DNA from: a virus
Length of the DNA stretch: 35,209 nucleotides
Virus record (IMG/VR): IMGVR_UViG_3300020281_000070
Span: 1 to 35,209 of that record
Strand: one strand, 5' to 3'
Shown here: in pieces, positions 25,581 through 34,993 of the stretch
Position numbering within the stretch: the stretch's first letter is position 1
Layout of the letters: each line of letters opens with the position of its first letter
Notes under the pieces: generated by a model
Told to the model about the DNA's origin: nothing
Database searches by the model: none
What the model saw: the letters and a program-made list of their open reading frames with translations, nothing else
Position numbers and translations under genes: made by a program

Positions 25581-27740
25581 TTAAGTAGGTAAGTTTTCAG
25601 GGGTACGCATGTTAGGTATATCTGTCTGCGCTGGTTTCTTTGCAGCCGTCTGCATTGCTGTAGCAGCAATACGTGCAGCTGCACTGGTGTTCTGCTGATT
25701 TGTTCTGACCTGATTCGTTGCTGCTGATAGTTGTCTACGCAGTTCAAGTTCTTCCTGCTTCATTTGCATCTTGGCTTGAAGCTCTGCAATCTTCATTTGC
25801 GGTTGAACTTGAGCCGTATCCTGAACCTTAGACATATTAACCGCTGTGTCTGATTGGAGTTTCTGAACTTCAGCCTCCATCTTCGCAAGCTCAAGCTGCA
25901 CTTGCTGCATAGCAAGTTCTTGCTGTATCGCCATTGCTTCTGCTTGTTCTGGTGTAGGTGGCTCTTGTCCTGTCATTGAACGAATGCGCTGAGCCAACTC
26001 ATCTTTCTTAGCAAGATGTGAATACTGAATGATTGCATCATCAGGTATCGCCACACCAACCTGCCGCAAATTAAGGGCTTCAGCAAACTGCACTTCATCA
26101 AACGAATCACGGGCAGGAGCAGTCGATACAATTACGTCATACTCACCTAATGTCAGGTCATTTATAATCCTACCTTCAGGCGTTTCAACGTTAATCGCTA
26201 CTTCTTCTCTTGGCTCCATTGGCATATCTTCATTTGTCACCATGATAATTCTTTCTTCTGTATAGAAGGTTTGTAACAAATTAAGCACACGCTCTGCCAG
26301 ATACTGACGAGTCTTTCGCAAGTTATCTAGCGGAACCTGAATCATTATGACCCCACGATTCTGCTTTGCTTGGATCGCTACGCCACTCACTTCAGCAGAG
26401 TCTGACCCCAGCATAGAGTCATTGATACCAGAGATCGTTTGTATATTCGCAGCAGCTTTCTGCCCGATTCGGTCTAGCCCCGTAGGTATTTGATTTGGTT
26501 GGATTTTTACAGGAGGAGTAGAGCCACGGTTGTACTCCAGCACTAGCCCTGTTTCTGCGCCATGCTCCTCAAGGTCATCTGCTTGCATACCAACCAATGA
26601 GCCACTTTCTACCATCCAGCCACTGTTTGCAGTGGTGTTGACAATATGTAGTTCTTGGCTGGCAATCTTATTAAGTTGTTCTTGCGGTGACAGTAAGTTA
26701 CGCACCATGCCAAACGGACGGCCTCTACGGAAATACGCAAAGAAAGGCACAACAGTAAAGTCATTGTAAGGAGAGAAGTCATCATGCAGCACCACTCTGT
26801 CAGCGGTCACTGTCCAACGCACCCTACGCTTAACTTTAGAAATAATGTTTAACCCGTATTTTTTTGCAAACTGTTTAGTCTTTCTATCGCCCCATGCTTC
26901 AGGTACTTCTCTTTGATCCCCTGTGTTTGGGTCAACAAAGCAGTCAACACGCTGTAGCTTTTTGTATTGCCGTTCTATGACTCTAACGGAGCGCACATTT
27001 CTGTAGTCATCTTCACTTGGTACACCTGACCCAAAGTAGTCATCAGTCGGGTCAAGATCACCAAATCGAGTTTCTTCATACTCAATACTGTCACGCCCGT
27101 AGCTGTTGCCGTTCTCAGCGACAAAGCGGATCTTCTCTGCCTTATCTTTGCCGTATAGCTCTTGTATCTCGTCAAGCGTCATCCAACGAGTTTCAAAAAA
27201 CTCATTCCAAGTTTTAGGGTCAGAGTCTTTGGCATCAGGGTCAATCAATATATCAAGGGGGTCTTTTGCGGTGATGCGTATCTCACCTTCAACGTGATCG
27301 CTGAAATCCATACGCACATCAAAATACCCACGCCCGTCCATAATCAGGCCGTCACTGAATACCTGCTGCTCCACCCAATCCAACTTGTTGTTATCGGCAA
27401 TCTGCATAAACAACTTGTTGAGCGTTATTGCAATCTCATTGTCACCGCCCCTTCTGGGCTTAAACTTAATGTCGGCCCTACGAGTGGCTTGCTCACCCAA
27501 GACGGTGTTGATAGTAGGTAAGATAGTATTGATTGTTAATGCAGGTCGGCCTTCTGCTTCAAGGTTTGCTATATCCTGTTCGTCCCATTGATCGCCTCTA
27601 TAGAAAGCATCGCATCGTTTTGCCATCTCAATGTAATCGAGATGCCCATTGTCTCTTGCTCTGGTGTATCGACTCCATTGCGTTGTTGCAATTTCTTGCT
27701 CTTCTGCTGGAGAAACATTTCTACCTTTAATCTGCGCCAT
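25581..27740 (-). CDS. portal protein (P22-type)
   Basis: This 719-residue protein matches the P22-like portal family pattern: YIEMAKRCDAFYRGDQWDEQ near residue 35-55, GRPALTINTILPTINTVLG at about 65-83, then DPLDILIDPDAKDSDP and LSPQEQLNKIASQELHIVNT further in. Residues about 590-690 are a long Gln/Glu-rich coiled coil (MQQVQLELAKMEAEVQKLQS), the region that forms the barrel in this family. The portal forms the dodecameric DNA entry ring at one capsid vertex and docks the terminase encoded just upstream. The start ATG at 27740 is 2 bases after the terminase stop. Confidence 0.9.
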   Translation of the reverse strand: MAQIKGRNVSPAEEQEIATTQWSRYTRARDNGHLDYIEMAKRCDAFYRGDQWDEQDIANLEAEGRPALTINTILPTINTVLGEQATRRADIKFKPRRGGDNEIAITLNKLFMQIADNNKLDWVEQQVFSDGLIMDGRGYFDVRMDFSDHVEGEIRITAKDPLDILIDPDAKDSDPKTWNEFFETRWMTLDEIQELYGKDKAEKIRFVAENGNSYGRDSIEYEETRFGDLDPTDDYFGSGVPSEDDYRNVRSVRVIERQYKKLQRVDCFVDPNTGDQREVPEAWGDRKTKQFAKKYGLNIISKVKRRVRWTVTADRVVLHDDFSPYNDFTVVPFFAYFRRGRPFGMVRNLLSPQEQLNKIASQELHIVNTTANSGWMVESGSLVGMQADDLEEHGAETGLVLEYNRGSTPPVKIQPNQIPTGLDRIGQKAAANIQTISGINDSMLGSDSAEVSGVAIQAKQNRGVIMIQVPLDNLRKTRQYLAERVLNLLQTFYTEERIIMVTNEDMPMEPREEVAINVETPEGRIINDLTLGEYDVIVSTAPARDSFDEVQFAEALNLRQVGVAIPDDAIIQYSHLAKKDELAQRIRSMTGQEPPTPEQAEAMAIQQELAMQQVQLELAKMEAEVQKLQSDTAVNMSKVQDTAQVQPQMKIAELQAKMQMKQEELELRRQLSAATNQVRTNQQNTSAAARIAATAMQTAAKKPAQTDIPNMRTPENLPT

Positions 27741-27742
27741 TG

Positions 27743-29380
27743 TTATGCACTCATCGATGACTTGGTTCGTTCAGGCTTCAGCATACTGTTCAGCCTGTCA
27801 CGCCAACTGGGTGTATGAATTACAGGGGCTTGATAGCTAGAAAATTCGGTCATCATTAGACCCAGCCACGCCAATGCGTCTACTTGGTCATCATGTATGC
27901 CGCTAGGGAAACGCAATAGCTCTGCAACTAGCGGTCCTGTAAAGATCGCATCTTTGGGGAAATACACCATTCCTTGTTGCATCCGTCCCTGTATTGCTCT
28001 TGCCCTAGCTTCTTTGTCTCTTCTACCTGTCTTCAAGTCCTTGATATATATCTCGTATAATCCTCTCTCCCGTATCCGTTTCTCCAAAAACGGACCTAAT
28101 GCCATTTCAATGTGTCCTTTCTCAATGCCCACCATTGATGGTTTCCATTCTTCATAGAGATCAAGTATGCGCTCTACGATCTCGAAACCGTCAAATCTAC
28201 CACGTACTACGTCAATGACAAAGAGTTCATCTACGTCATTGACTCCTACGACCATACCTACGGTATAGTCATTTCGATCACGTTTACCTATCGCCAAGTC
28301 CCAAGCGCAGTAGTAACGCATGGCATCTGGGTCAACCTCATCGTCATCATAATACTGAATCATCTCACGAGTGAAGTATTCGCCATCATCTGATACTGGA
28401 TTCTGCTGATACAGCGCAGACCAATCACGAGGCCCTACTGCACTGCGAATCTGACCCAAAGCCGCTAAACTGTATCTTTCTGGGTGGAGTGCTTCTCCAT
28501 GATCACGATATTCTTCTTTCTCTTCTGCGATGGCAGGGTAGCGTACAACTTCCCAAACGTCACCGCCCTCATCAGCCGCTTTAAGCAATCGCCCAGCCAA
28601 GTCATCGTCATGCCAACGAGTAAGTATGACCAGAATGCCCCCACCAGGAGCCAATCGGGTATAGGCTGTGGAAGTGTACCAATCCCAGTTAGCCGATCTA
28701 TTATTCTCCGACTCACTGTCCTCACGGTTCTTAATAGGATCGTCAATAACGAGAACGTGCGCTCCTTTACCTGTGATACCACCGCCAACACCTGCCGCCA
28801 CATAGCCGCCACCGCCTGTAGTCAACCACGCTTCAGCCGACTGCGAATCTGGGTCAAGGCGTGTTTGAAACGCTGTTTTGTAAGTTGGCTCACGCAATAG
28901 TTGACGAACTTTACGACTGAATCCCATAGCCAACGAGCCTGAGTACGAACACGAGATAAATTCGTGTTCAGGATTTCTGCCCAAGTGCCAAGCTGGGAAG
29001 GAGACAGATGCAAGCGTACTTTTTCCATGACGAGGCGGCATAAAGAGCATAAGCCTTGGAGACTTTTTTGCCACCACATCCCGACTGAATTGTTCCAAGC
29101 GTCTGCAAATATCTTTATGAACCCACCCTGCTTGATAATCTGCGTTAAACCGTTCAACAAACGGGAGTAGCCTTTTGCGAGTAAGGATTCGGAGGGCGAG
29201 TTCTTTTCGTGCTTTGTCTTCAACGCTTAACTCCTCTACTGTTTCTTGTGTTTGAATGGGTGCTGGTGCAGGAAGTGACTCTGTTCGATCAGCTTTACAG
29301 TAGACGCAAACGCCATCTGTGCCACTAAACAGAGTTTCTACGTGAAAATTGGTGCAAACGTTGCACTGCTTTTTAATCAC
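27743..29380 (-). CDS. terL: terminase large subunit
   Basis: This 545-residue DNA-packaging motor starts at ATG 29380, overlapping the small-subunit stop (ATGA). Residues 6-28 hold a CxxC...CxxC zinc-ribbon-like motif (C6, C9, C25, C28), an uncommon extra. The ATPase domain has Walker A PPRHGKS at 115-121 and Walker B HVLVIDDP at 208-215. The RNase H-like nuclease domain follows (YYCAWDLAIGKRDRNDY, MVGIEKGHIEMALGP, and HDDQVDALAWLG near the end). The protein cuts concatemeric DNA and pumps it into the procapsid through the portal. Confidence 0.93.
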   Translation of the reverse strand: MIKKQCNVCTNFHVETLFSGTDGVCVYCKADRTESLPAPAPIQTQETVEELSVEDKARKELALRILTRKRLLPFVERFNADYQAGWVHKDICRRLEQFSRDVVAKKSPRLMLFMPPRHGKSTLASVSFPAWHLGRNPEHEFISCSYSGSLAMGFSRKVRQLLREPTYKTAFQTRLDPDSQSAEAWLTTGGGGYVAAGVGGGITGKGAHVLVIDDPIKNREDSESENNRSANWDWYTSTAYTRLAPGGGILVILTRWHDDDLAGRLLKAADEGGDVWEVVRYPAIAEEKEEYRDHGEALHPERYSLAALGQIRSAVGPRDWSALYQQNPVSDDGEYFTREMIQYYDDDEVDPDAMRYYCAWDLAIGKRDRNDYTVGMVVGVNDVDELFVIDVVRGRFDGFEIVERILDLYEEWKPSMVGIEKGHIEMALGPFLEKRIRERGLYEIYIKDLKTGRRDKEARARAIQGRMQQGMVYFPKDAIFTGPLVAELLRFPSGIHDDQVDALAWLGLMMTEFSSYQAPVIHTPSWRDRLNSMLKPERTKSSMSA

Positions 29381-29886
29381 TTAGGCTCCAGATACGCAGT
29401 TTCTCTCCCTGCAATCTCCAGTAGTTCCTCATCAGTCAGTCGCTCCAACTGCTTAGCAGTCGTATTGATGCTAATGTTCACCTGCGTAGCATTATCTGGC
29501 TCTCCTAGCCCGTGCAACTTGACCAAAGAATCTACTGTGTTCTTCATCTCTGTTGCATTCGCTGCTGCAGTATATGCCTCCATATACATCTGGTGTGCGT
29601 TGTTGCGACTAAATCTGACTTCTTCTCGCATCTGTTCCCGAAAATACTCTAGTGCTTTAGCTACTTTCGGTAACTTTGATGCATTGAGCGCAGCGGTGTA
29701 TGTGCCATACCCTGCTGAGCGACCTGCTGCAGCCACTGTCATGCCACTGCTAATCATTAGCACCAGCCGTTCCTGCTGCACGGTCAACTCGCCAAGCTGT
29801 AGGCCCATGTAAGGAACATGAGATTCAAACTCAGCATGAGGCATTTCTGCCAAATCAGCGGATAAGGGGTTCTCCACTTCGCTCAT
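29377..29886 (-). CDS. terS: terminase small subunit-like DNA-binding protein
   Basis: This 169-residue protein lies directly upstream of the large terminase, overlapping it by 4 bases. A helix-turn-helix-like part (TVQQERLVLMISSGMTVAAA, GRSAGYGTYTAALNASKLPK, residues about 35-75) is followed by a long helix (VAKALEYFREQMREEVRFSR) and an oligomerisation-like C-terminus (LERLTDEELLEIAGRE). This is the layout of TerS proteins, which recognise the packaging site and recruit TerL. The start ATG at 29886 has no clear Shine-Dalgarno site, so the true start could be internal. Confidence 0.8.
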   Translation of the reverse strand: MSEVENPLSADLAEMPHAEFESHVPYMGLQLGELTVQQERLVLMISSGMTVAAAGRSAGYGTYTAALNASKLPKVAKALEYFREQMREEVRFSRNNAHQMYMEAYTAAANATEMKNTVDSLVKLHGLGEPDNATQVNISINTTAKQLERLTDEELLEIAGRETAYLEPK

Positions 29887-30751: not shown

Positions 30752-30927
30752 ACAAAGTGCTAGATTCAATCTCTTCAGGTCCAACCAACAACGAACACCG
30801 TGACAAATGTATCGCTGAAGTCACGATCATGCTCTTCTGGTCGCTGTTTCTCGGGACCAAACAGGGTCACATCATCCGTAAGCATGGCGCATGGATGACC
30901 ACCGAAAAGCCTACTCATCCTGAGTAG
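30739..30927 (+). CDS. small early-type hypothetical protein
   Basis: This 62-residue protein starts at ATG 30739, with GAGGAGGG just upstream inside the end of the membrane-protein gene. It has a hydrophobic stretch (CIAEVTIMLFWSLFLGTKQG, residues 24-43) that may be membrane-associated, and a His/Thr-rich C-terminus. Its stop lies within the stem of the following terminator. No family recognised. Confidence 0.65.
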   Translation: METIDKVLDSISSGPTNNEHRDKCIAEVTIMLFWSLFLGTKQGHIIRKHGAWMTTEKPTHPE

Positions 30928-30979: not shown

Positions 30980-31006
30980 CTCGTCCCTCGCCCTCCTGTG
31001 TAGTGT
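30980..31006 (+). promoter_or_regulatory. 27-bp promoter-like element, copy 2
   Basis: Same CTCGTCCCTCGCCCT-N3-GTGTAGTGT element, with N3 = CCT. It lies 41 bases after the intrinsic terminator and 42 bases before the start codon at 31049. The order terminator, element, ribosome site, gene supports a transcription start here. Upstream it shares ATGG, and downstream CAC, with copy 3. Confidence 0.65.
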
Positions 31007-31048: not shown

Positions 31049-31321
31049 ATGGCTAAGCAACAAACGCTCGACCTAGACGAACCAACCAGAGTAGACAAGA
31101 TACTCGCTAAAGTGAAACCAATGTACCACAAAGCAAAGGCGAAGGCTCAGCCCTACGCTAAGTCTGCATTTGAGTACGCTAAAGAGAACCCAGGTGACGT
31201 AATGATCGGCTTGATTACGCTCATGGTGTGGGATATTGAGGACTCAGTGGACGAAATCGAAGAAGCATCTAATGTTTCTGCGTATGTGGACGCATCTAAC
31301 TACATGGACGGGGGGCGCTAA
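31049..31321 (+). CDS. small early-type hypothetical protein
   Basis: This 90-residue protein starts at ATG 31049 with AAGGAG 8 bases upstream. The N-terminal half is basic and helical (RVDKILAKVKPMYHKAKAKA, PYAKSAFEYAKENPGD), followed by a short hydrophobic helix (DVMIGLITLMVWDIEDSVDE, about 50-69) and an acidic tail. The layout suggests an amphipathic or membrane-associated protein. Function unknown. It is alone behind element copy 2, with the iteron region after it. Confidence 0.7.
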   Translation: MAKQQTLDLDEPTRVDKILAKVKPMYHKAKAKAQPYAKSAFEYAKENPGDVMIGLITLMVWDIEDSVDEIEEASNVSAYVDASNYMDGGR

Positions 31322-31700
31322 GCCCCTTTGCCGCAGGTGGTGCGGGGATGTGCGTGCCAATGCCCCACAGCCTCACGGGGCCACAGCGTGCGCCTACGTG
31401 TGCCATGTGTGTCAAGTGTGTGTCACCCGTGTGTGCCAACTACAAATCATATAAGTCTTTGATTCATATACACTTTGTAAAATGTGTGTCATGTGTGTCA
31501 GGTTTTTTGTTTTGTGGTTGGTATATACATATGGTTTTTTATGAATATCAAGGTGTTTTTACAATGATTTTAGAAAAAACTGAAAACCAAAGAAAAAGTA
31601 GACACACATGGCACACAGTTGATTTTACTAAGAAAAAGCTGGCACACATGAGGCACACATTAAGACACACAGCCCCAAACTAGACACACCAAGGCAATGG
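31322..31700. repeat. mirror-image 9-bp iteron clusters around an AT-rich centre; candidate replication origin
   Basis: A gene-free stretch between 31322 and 31764. On the left side the 9-mer TGTGTGYCA occurs at 31406-31414, 31417-31425, 31430-31438, 31483-31491 and 31492-31500, with a near copy at 31397-31405. On the right side its reverse complement TGRCACACA occurs at 31609-31617 and 31640-31648, with one-mismatch copies at 31600-31608, 31651-31659 and 31663-31671 and a two-mismatch copy at 31682-31690. The centre (31501-31595) is rich in A and T. Two GC hairpins (31331-31345 and 31362-31381) precede it. Six plus six inverted iterons around an AT-rich core resemble replication origins with initiator sites. 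A repressor-binding region or an RNA that folds back on itself is also possible. Confidence 0.65.
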
Positions 31701-31727
31701 CTCGTCCCTCGCCCTTGGGTGTAGTGT
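31701..31727 (+). promoter_or_regulatory. 27-bp promoter-like element, copy 3
   Basis: Same element with N3 = TGG, 11 bases after the last iteron and 37 bases before the start codon at 31765. It would start transcription of the middle rightward cluster (31765-32841). Its closeness to the iterons could also let transcription activate the candidate origin. Confidence 0.65.
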
Positions 31728-31764
31728 CACGATTTTACCATTCATTTATATGTAAGGAGTACAT

Positions 31765-31992: not shown

Positions 31993-32137
31993 TCTTGAAG
32001 TAAGAACTAGCTGGGATGATCTTGTTGAAGATGATCCTGTGTGTGTGAGCATCGATGAACTATTGATGCGTGAGGATGCAAGGGTAGAGTTTGATGCCCT
32101 TGTGAATATTGATACTAATGGAGTAAATTACCAATGA
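31976..32137 (+). CDS. small acidic hypothetical protein
   Basis: This 53-residue protein is read from ATG 31976, which has GAGGAG 8 bases upstream; an in-frame ATG at 31946 lacks a site. It overlaps the previous gene by 17 bases and the next by 4 (ATGA). Strongly acidic (WDDLVEDDPVCVSIDELLMR). Small acidic early proteins of phages sometimes mimic DNA or bind host enzymes, but nothing specific is visible here. Confidence 0.6.
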   Translation: MLKILNLEVRTSWDDLVEDDPVCVSIDELLMREDARVEFDALVNIDTNGVNYQ

Positions 32138-32841
32138 CTAAAGACACTTGTACATTTCTACTAGCAGCACTAAACGAAATAGCTGAGAAGAAAGACGCTC
32201 AGCACCTACCCACCAAAGACGCATTGTTGGCTGATACAGTTTTGAATCATGCCCCCGATGACGTAGTACCCATGAAAATTGCCGTGGCATTCCATGTATT
32301 TCGTGAAGCACGCAGGGGTGCAAACGAAATCACGGGTGAATACCTTGGCCCCAAACCAGAAGCACTACTCAGCTTCACACAGCGAGTAATGAACAAGGCT
32401 TGCTGGCTGGCGAGAGCGCAAGGCATAGCCCAGACAATACAAGACCAGGAAGAAGAGGTACGAGGCACAACAGGCATCGACTTTGCTCAAGACTCAGGCG
32501 AAGAACGAGGTCAGACCTATATCTCTCGTGACCGCATTGAAGACGTAATCATTTCTGATTTTGCAGATATGGCAGCCATGCACTCTGTACTATGCGATGA
32601 GATGGACTACCTTGGCGACATCGAGCCATTGGTGCTATTCGGACAACGTACCAAGATCGAGAGAATCGATGAAGAGACAGGTGAAGTATCTGATGAGTGG
32701 GTATCTGCCTTTGAAACATGCAGCTGGCCTGATGCATTGAACCAGATGGACAGCATCGTGGACGGCTTGCGTAATGACAACACTAAAGAATCTCTAATGG
32801 ACAGAATACGTGAGCGTATGGGAGAGAAAAGCGCAGCGTAA
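32134..32841 (+). CDS. hypothetical protein, middle rightward cluster
   Basis: This 235-residue protein begins at ATG 32134, overlapping the previous stop (ATGA). It is mostly helical, with acidic segments (QDQEEEVRGTTGIDFAQDSG, IERIDEETGEVSDEWVSAFE) and no membrane segment. I see no nuclease, helicase or polymerase motif. It could be a replication-associated or regulatory protein given its place after the candidate origin. I do not recognise it. Confidence 0.7.
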   Translation: MTKDTCTFLLAALNEIAEKKDAQHLPTKDALLADTVLNHAPDDVVPMKIAVAFHVFREARRGANEITGEYLGPKPEALLSFTQRVMNKACWLARAQGIAQTIQDQEEEVRGTTGIDFAQDSGEERGQTYISRDRIEDVIISDFADMAAMHSVLCDEMDYLGDIEPLVLFGQRTKIERIDEETGEVSDEWVSAFETCSWPDALNQMDSIVDGLRNDNTKESLMDRIRERMGEKSAA

Positions 32842-34132: not shown

Positions 34133-34993
34133 ATGAACCACAAGCAAACCATGCTTAAAGCAGCAGTCAATGGCTTCTACTCAATGCAAAGCACACGTAT
34201 CAAAGTGGGCAATGCTGTAGTAGGTAACTTCAAAAGCAAGATCGGACAGGAGCCTAGCAAGTCAGAAGACACACTGGATGCTGATGCCAAGCTATTACTG
34301 TCTAATCTACGCACTTCATACAAAAAGATTACTGATGGCATCGTCAGTATGACACCACGCAAGTTCAAGAAAGACGGACTCATTGATGCCTACTCAGAGT
34401 TCTCTCTTGTGCAGCAGTACGTCAATCTTGTAGATGCAGAGGACGCAGCGTTCAAACAGATTGAGTACAGCGTGAAAGAGTTTCCCATATGGAAAAGCTT
34501 CCTTGAAGATGTGAAAGGTGTCGGTCCTACTATGGCAGCAGTCATCATCGCAAGTTTTGACATACACAAAGCAGAGTATCCCAGTTCTTTATGGGCCTAC
34601 GCTGGACTAGATGTAGTCAACGGTGCAGGTAGATCCAGAAAGAAAGAGCATCTGGTAGACCAAACATACATTGACAAAGATGGTAAGGAACAAACCAAGA
34701 AAGGTATCAGCTTCAATCCTTTTCTCAAAACCAAACTAATCGGTGTGCTTGGTGGCTCATTCGTCAAGACTAATGGTGTCTACCGTGACATCTATGACAA
34801 CTACAAACACCGCATTACAAACATGCCAGCCCATGCTGAGAAAACAAAAGCACATCTCAACAACATGGCAATACGGTACACAGTTAAACGATTCCTTGTG
34901 GATCTATACTCCGCGTGGCGCAAACTAGAAGGGCTTCCTGTTGCAGAGGAATACAGCAAAGCTAAGCTGGGTATAGATCACAAGGTTGCATGA
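34133..34993 (+). CDS. tasA: Tas protein, nuclease-less TasA type (IS110/Nop-like domain)
   Basis: This 286-residue protein has AGGAGG 5 bases before ATG 34133. Residues 1-115 are helical. Residues 127-140 form a helix-hairpin-helix (VKGVGPTMAAVIIA), followed by SSLWAYAGLDVVNGAGRSRK (151-170), GISFNPFLKTKLIGVLGGSF (191-210) and a terminal helix (YTVKRFLVDLYSAWRKLEG). This is the pattern of the C-terminal domain of IS110/IS116-family transposases, to which Nop-domain Tas proteins are related. The N-terminal RuvC-like catalytic domain of IS110 enzymes is absent, and no HNH or RuvC motif is fused, so it is not a transposase. A 36-bp guide array begins in its stop codon, which identifies it as the RNA-binding effector of a TIGR-Tas system. 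Without a nuclease it may bind and block DNA or recruit a partner. Other standalone IS110-like proteins exist, but the array makes this reading strong. Confidence 0.88.
   Translation: MNHKQTMLKAAVNGFYSMQSTRIKVGNAVVGNFKSKIGQEPSKSEDTLDADAKLLLSNLRTSYKKITDGIVSMTPRKFKKDGLIDAYSEFSLVQQYVNLVDAEDAAFKQIEYSVKEFPIWKSFLEDVKGVGPTMAAVIIASFDIHKAEYPSSLWAYAGLDVVNGAGRSRKKEHLVDQTYIDKDGKEQTKKGISFNPFLKTKLIGVLGGSFVKTNGVYRDIYDNYKHRITNMPAHAEKTKAHLNNMAIRYTVKRFLVDLYSAWRKLEGLPVAEEYSKAKLGIDHKVA

Follow-up and report, generated by a model that had tools for sequence, protein, structure and literature searches.

The 35,209-base viral contig IMGVR_UViG_3300020281_000070 from IMG/VR, a fragment of a phage genome that was analysed over its whole length and is called the window here, contains a mirrored array of 9-bp words in a gene-free gap. 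This array is very probably an iteron replication origin whose words would be read by a predicted winged helix at the C terminus of the phage's own primase-helicase, and we conclude that it is an origin representing a variant of the P4/SaPI type. The assignment proposes origins and an initiator for two large phage groups, most of whose members are uncultivated, and the words found in them, at least a dozen, form a natural data set on DNA recognition by a winged helix and on how initiator and origin remain matched although both change.

The mirrored array of the window

The window derives from a tailed phage with a portal of the P22 type, and its leftward structural genes and terminase are followed by small early genes running rightward. 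The large terminase subunit (27743–29380, − strand) was used as the anchor for finding relatives, and the small subunit, TerS, is encoded at 29377–29886 (− strand). The 443-bp gap between flanking open reading frames that holds the putative origin (31322–31764) is preceded by a small early gene (31049–31321, + strand; family 6, 40 members) that recurs beside the arrays of family A, the group of relatives that includes the window. A 235-aa gene with no assigned function (32134–32841, + strand) recurs 0.5–1.5 kb beyond the array in the same family. Two similar leaders (GTAGTGTCAC ... AAGGAGTA), at 31000 and 31724, precede the genes of 31049 and 31765 and are perhaps promoters.

The gap contains seven exact and five one-mismatch copies of TGTGTGYCA. 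There are eight exact copies in the entire window, seven of them within 31406–31648, compared with a mean of 0.55 and a maximum of 3 upon shuffling of the window; first-order Markov simulations never gave more than one exact copy per 250 bp. On the + strand the sites begin at 31351 (one mismatch), 31397 (one mismatch), 31406, 31417, 31430, 31483 and 31492, and on the − strand at 31600 (one mismatch), 31609, 31640, 31651 (one mismatch), 31663 (one mismatch) and 31682 (two mismatches). The left arm, on the terminase side (31397–31500, + strand, first copy CGTGTGCCA), comprises six copies, with an additional outlying near copy at 31351–31359 (TGCGTGCCA, + strand, one mismatch), and the right arm (31600–31690, − strand, first copy TGTGTGTCT) likewise comprises six if the two-mismatch copy at 31682 is counted. 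The words point rightward to the left of the core and leftward to the right of it, so that the arms face each other. The core itself (31501–31599, 99 bp), a putative DNA-unwinding element, is 75% AT against 58% for the window, a content reached by only 0.4% of 99-bp windows. The general features of an iteron origin, namely repeats and a putative AT-rich unwinding region, are therefore present. These data confirm the mirror-image clusters around an AT-rich core described in the first-pass annotation and bear out its count of six words per arm, with the two qualifications given above; the directly abutting 9-bp units that it mentioned are found as three pairs (31397/31406, 31483/31492 and 31600/31609). 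An open reading frame of 111 residues (31348–31683) that crosses the array mainly reads through the repeats and was taken as spurious. A blastn search of the array region against phage records gave no match.

Conservation of the layout in related phages

Relatives were collected with the 18-mer formed by two abutting words, which gave 50 stretches in public viral contigs, and by a terminase search, which gave 80. The mirrored cluster with its repeated spacings is present in most loci that reach the site, and this comparison, which the first-pass annotation had proposed, shows that the mirror layout is kept. The array-bearing phages fall mainly into two groups with different terminases, family A and family B. 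In family A the array lies 1–3 kb from TerS on the early side, and in family B it lies 130–330 bp upstream of TerS and 2–3.5 kb beyond the primase-helicase gene. Facing abutting pairs were sought at separations of 60–160 bp in the 78 family-A arrays that contain two or more abutting pairs, and 65 of the 78 have such pairs 66–160 bp apart, mostly around 85 or 107 bp, two values that differ by two helical turns. The core between them averages 73% AT against 53% for the locus and is the more AT-rich of the two in all 65. A single array is found in the window, in G001, G002, G003, G005 and G007, and in the complete circular family-B genome G008.

Variation of the repeat words

When the array site was scanned without a preset word, the words themselves proved to differ between phages. 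Those seen at the site are TGTGTGYCA, TGTGTGTCC, TGTGTGTCG, TGTGTACCA, TGTGTACAA, TGTGTGCAG, TGTGTGACG, TGTGTGACA, CTGTGACA, CTGTGTCAG, TGTGTAGCAG, TGTGTGTACG and others; the words of family B include TGTGTGYCA, TGTAGTCA, TGTGGRCAA, TGTAGGCA and TGTTGGCA. In most phages the word is identical in both arms, and mixed arrays are few. Judged from the sequences, such concerted change is the signature of binding sites that track a changing protein. Because the layout is kept while the word changes in concert, we regard the array as protein-binding iterons and not as drift of a simple GT repeat. The words are indeed GT-rich, but the position and layout have been kept in tens of phages while the words changed, including to TGTAGTCA and TGTYACGA, which are not GT repeats. 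Functionless drift is refuted by this conservation and has a negligible probability, in agreement with the first-pass view that the symmetry was too regular for it.

The same pattern bears on a partition or incompatibility site and on pairing of the two arms into a structured RNA or a long hairpin. The inverted arms do provide stretches of 28–30 nt that are 80–82% complementary. Copies within one arm, however, change together and stand at varied spacings, neither of which pairing needs, and the neighbouring genes that were searched include no partition gene, so that these readings are very improbable.

Covariation of the word with the primase-helicase

The best candidate for the protein that reads the words is, from sequence comparison, the phage DUF5906 primase-helicase, a D5-like AAA+ helicase with an N terminus that is probably a primase of the archaeo-eukaryotic type. 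Its gene is present in 19 of the 30 family-A records searched, including G025, which has a TerS close to that of the window and carries both the gene and the array. No such gene is found in the 35-kb fragment; the window phage would encode the same initiator, as its near relative does, outside this fragment. The first-pass annotation had suggested that an initiator gene might be found next to the array beyond the window; a candidate does exist, but it is 9–14 kb from the array in family A and 2–3.5 kb in family B, and does not adjoin it.

In family B, 15 unique primase-helicases from TGTGTGYCA phages were compared with 10 from TGTAGTCA phages. The two word classes are separated by nine fixed differences, all located at residues 727–752 of 758, with none in the first 689 residues (Fisher 2.6e-10, treating columns as independent). 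Core identity is 87.8% between the two TGTGTGYCA subclades and 87.8–88.0% between either of these and the TGTAGTCA group. Among control proteins, the DNA polymerase has one fixed difference in 642, and the nucleotidyltransferase and the exonuclease have none. The changed stretch has a limit on either side and shows no marked excess of divergence at its four-fold sites, and the phages L337 and L342, which differ in both wing and word, are nearly identical in the DNA that immediately follows the primase-helicase gene. These observations make a simple linked exchange unlikely. One ancient exchange of the 3′ end of the gene could nevertheless lie behind several of the nine changes. There are two exceptions: L330 combines a TGTGTGYCA-type wing with a mixed array, and L344 has an intermediate wing and an array of TGTGGGCA.

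Over the whole protein, variability in 25-residue windows peaks in this same region, at residues 790–814 in family A and 732–756 in family B, and AlphaFold2 models of the C-terminal region predict a winged helix with the variable residues on the wing in both families. Foldseek searches with either C-terminal model returned no significant match, and a profile search of the C terminus against PDB sequences found nothing. In family A, where close pairs are few, the wing also diverges between phages that share a word (48% at 76–84% core identity), and covariation of wing and word is only suggestive there. The family-B covariation indicates that word specificity resides in the putative initiator and, together with the kept mirror layout, supports the first-pass reading of the array as a candidate origin.

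This covariation also weighs on a role as an operator array through which a phage regulator, possibly the initiator in autoregulation, would control the early genes. The family-B array does lie between divergently transcribed genes, and that of the window is in the gap ahead of a + strand gene. On the other hand, the family-A array is not at the divergence point, the covarying protein is a helicase-primase and not a small regulator, and an operator would not need facing pairs kept constant on the two sides of an AT-rich core. We consider this explanation unlikely, though operator function could be an additional role of the array.

As a replication origin, the array would act through its 9-bp words as iterons bound by the winged helix of the primase-helicase. 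With the arms opposed, two helicase rings would be loaded face to face across the AT-rich core, which they would then melt to set up two forks, so that binding would initiate replication. It is possible, and we put it forward tentatively, that the word switches fast and repeatedly together with the hypervariable wing of the initiator while the mirrored architecture stays constant, the recognition code being under diversifying selection. By analogy with proposals made for PLE and Odn, the pressure behind such selection would perhaps come from nucleases directed at the origin, from satellites, or from related phages that infect the same cell and use the origins of one another.

The terminase small subunit and packaging

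The nearness of the array to TerS in both families, at the distances given above, is what would be seen if it were a packaging (pac or cos) site bound by TerS and cleaved in the AT-rich core. In the L069/L079 pair the word changes along with residues of the TerS helix-turn-helix (IAAAARGAGY in L069, IRAAARAVGY in L079 and L127), and the 53.9-kb record G004 stops precisely at an abutting iteron pair (G004:C1:53870–53887), which may be either a break in the assembly or a physical end. The hint from L069 and L079 that TerS is the reader was overturned by wider sampling, because near-identical TerS proteins were found beside different words. The TerS proteins of L228 and L235 are 99.4% identical, with one difference in 161 residues, and adjoin TGTGTGTACGG and TTGTAGCAG, respectively; identity is 98.75% for L221/L222, 98.2% for L032/L297 and 96.9% for L217/L229, all of them pairs with different words. 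TerS was rejected as reader on the basis of these proteins, 96.9–99.4% identical beside different words. In family B, the TerS of the TGTAGTCA phages L338 and L342 is likewise 92% identical to that of TGTGTGYCA phages. The covarying residues sit in the primase-helicase, and many contigs run uninterrupted through the array. Overall, a packaging site is quite improbable.

In many family-A relatives (e.g. L088:6675–7190) an HNH/endonuclease VII-like gene lies between TerS and the array; neither the window nor its closest relatives have it. As a possible reader of the words, the HNH endonuclease next to TerS (family 4) was set aside on account of its absence from the window.

GC skew and the cultured relative KPP25

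The first-pass annotation had also named cumulative GC skew as a check. The minimum in the window, at 30,920, is indeed near the array, but in many relatives it is not, its position varying between −1.3 kb and more than +4 kb, and in the cultured Pseudomonas phage KPP25 (AB910393) the sign is opposite, the cumulative skew following transcription with a maximum near the divergence point. In the absence of a consistent mark at the array, GC skew was dropped as evidence for an origin.

KPP25 and the phages close to it carry a gene for a homologous primase-helicase (30% identity over 97%). In the equivalent gene-free gap KPP25 carries a mirrored TGTYACGA array (26394–26825) around a stretch that is among the most AT-rich of its genome, and a second mirrored array of the same word is located at 58257–58542, half a genome away. 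The word occurs 22 times altogether, where 3.7 copies would be expected. The two arrays are alike in their opening layout (L485 and L486) and stand 31.9 kb apart on the 64.1-kb circular map; possibly they are two origins or a pair resembling ori and crr. No array was found in the parts of Aeromonas phage phiA008 that were read. Being cultured, KPP25 makes the origin idea directly testable.

Comparison with known replicons

The satellite phage P4 shares with these phages a DUF5906 helicase fused to a primase; the DUF5906 match is found in the proteins of G025, family B and G020 and in P4 alpha. Alpha binds the repeats of its origin, short iterons as here, with a C-terminal winged helix (PMC4234260), which is a solved domain in P4 (1ka8) and a model in the relatives. 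The type-1 repeats of P4 are 9–11 bp apart and occur in both orientations, with crr running ++ −−, but P4 ori lacks the two symmetric arms of the mirrored arrays described here. Alpha also has a zinc-ribbon/Toprim primase and a C-terminal match to Pfam Pox_D5; the relatives' primase-helicases match neither of these, the only primase match being a weak one to RepB_primase in family B. P4 needs both ori and crr, whereas family-A records and the complete G008 have one array and KPP25 has two. With no Toprim primase and a single array, the array phages are not P4 replicons in the strict sense.

SaPI Rep and SCCmec Cch2 are self-loading D5-type helicases of mobile elements whose C-terminal domain reads origin iterons, and binding, apparently as two hexamers, is reported (PMC7581432). 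The likeness lies in these described features; the SaPI origin, however, is directly downstream of rep, whereas the arrays here are 2–14 kb from the primase-helicase gene. RepA of the Vibrio PLE offers a parallel in the covariation of its DNA-binding domain with the origin iterons (PMC8263062), but it belongs to the RepA_N family, with an N-terminal DNA-binding domain and semi-palindromic iterons of about 30 bp, and has no mirrored 9-bp arms. ORF904 of the crenarchaeal plasmid pRN1 similarly joins a prim-pol type primase and a helicase to a C-terminal winged helix, but the pRN1 origin is a large stem-loop without iterons (PMC4234260), unlike the iteron-based arrays here.

Additional repeats and genes

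Several other features were observed in these loci. In family-B loci such as L374, L380 and L385 a second type of array directly precedes TerS, consisting of palindromic AAGTTAGTG units placed 9 bp apart in opposite orientation at about 140–330 bp from TerS; it may be an operator or a packaging site. Tandem 12-bp repeats (ACTGCCCACACG) on one strand accompany the iteron array in L097, L139, L330 and L322. L090 has ten copies of TGGTTTT, mostly 36 bp apart, about 4.8–5.1 kb beyond TerS, and a similar repeat (AGAAAACC) is present near the right end of the window. A transposase-like gene of the window (34133–34993) with a match to the IS110/IS116 family (Transposase_20) is also present in close relatives. 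An early three-gene set in L148 (3660–6360, corresponding to G003 43660–46360) and its relatives encodes a ThiF/E1-like protein and includes a weak JAB-like match, which hints at a module for ubiquitin-like conjugation or anti-defence.
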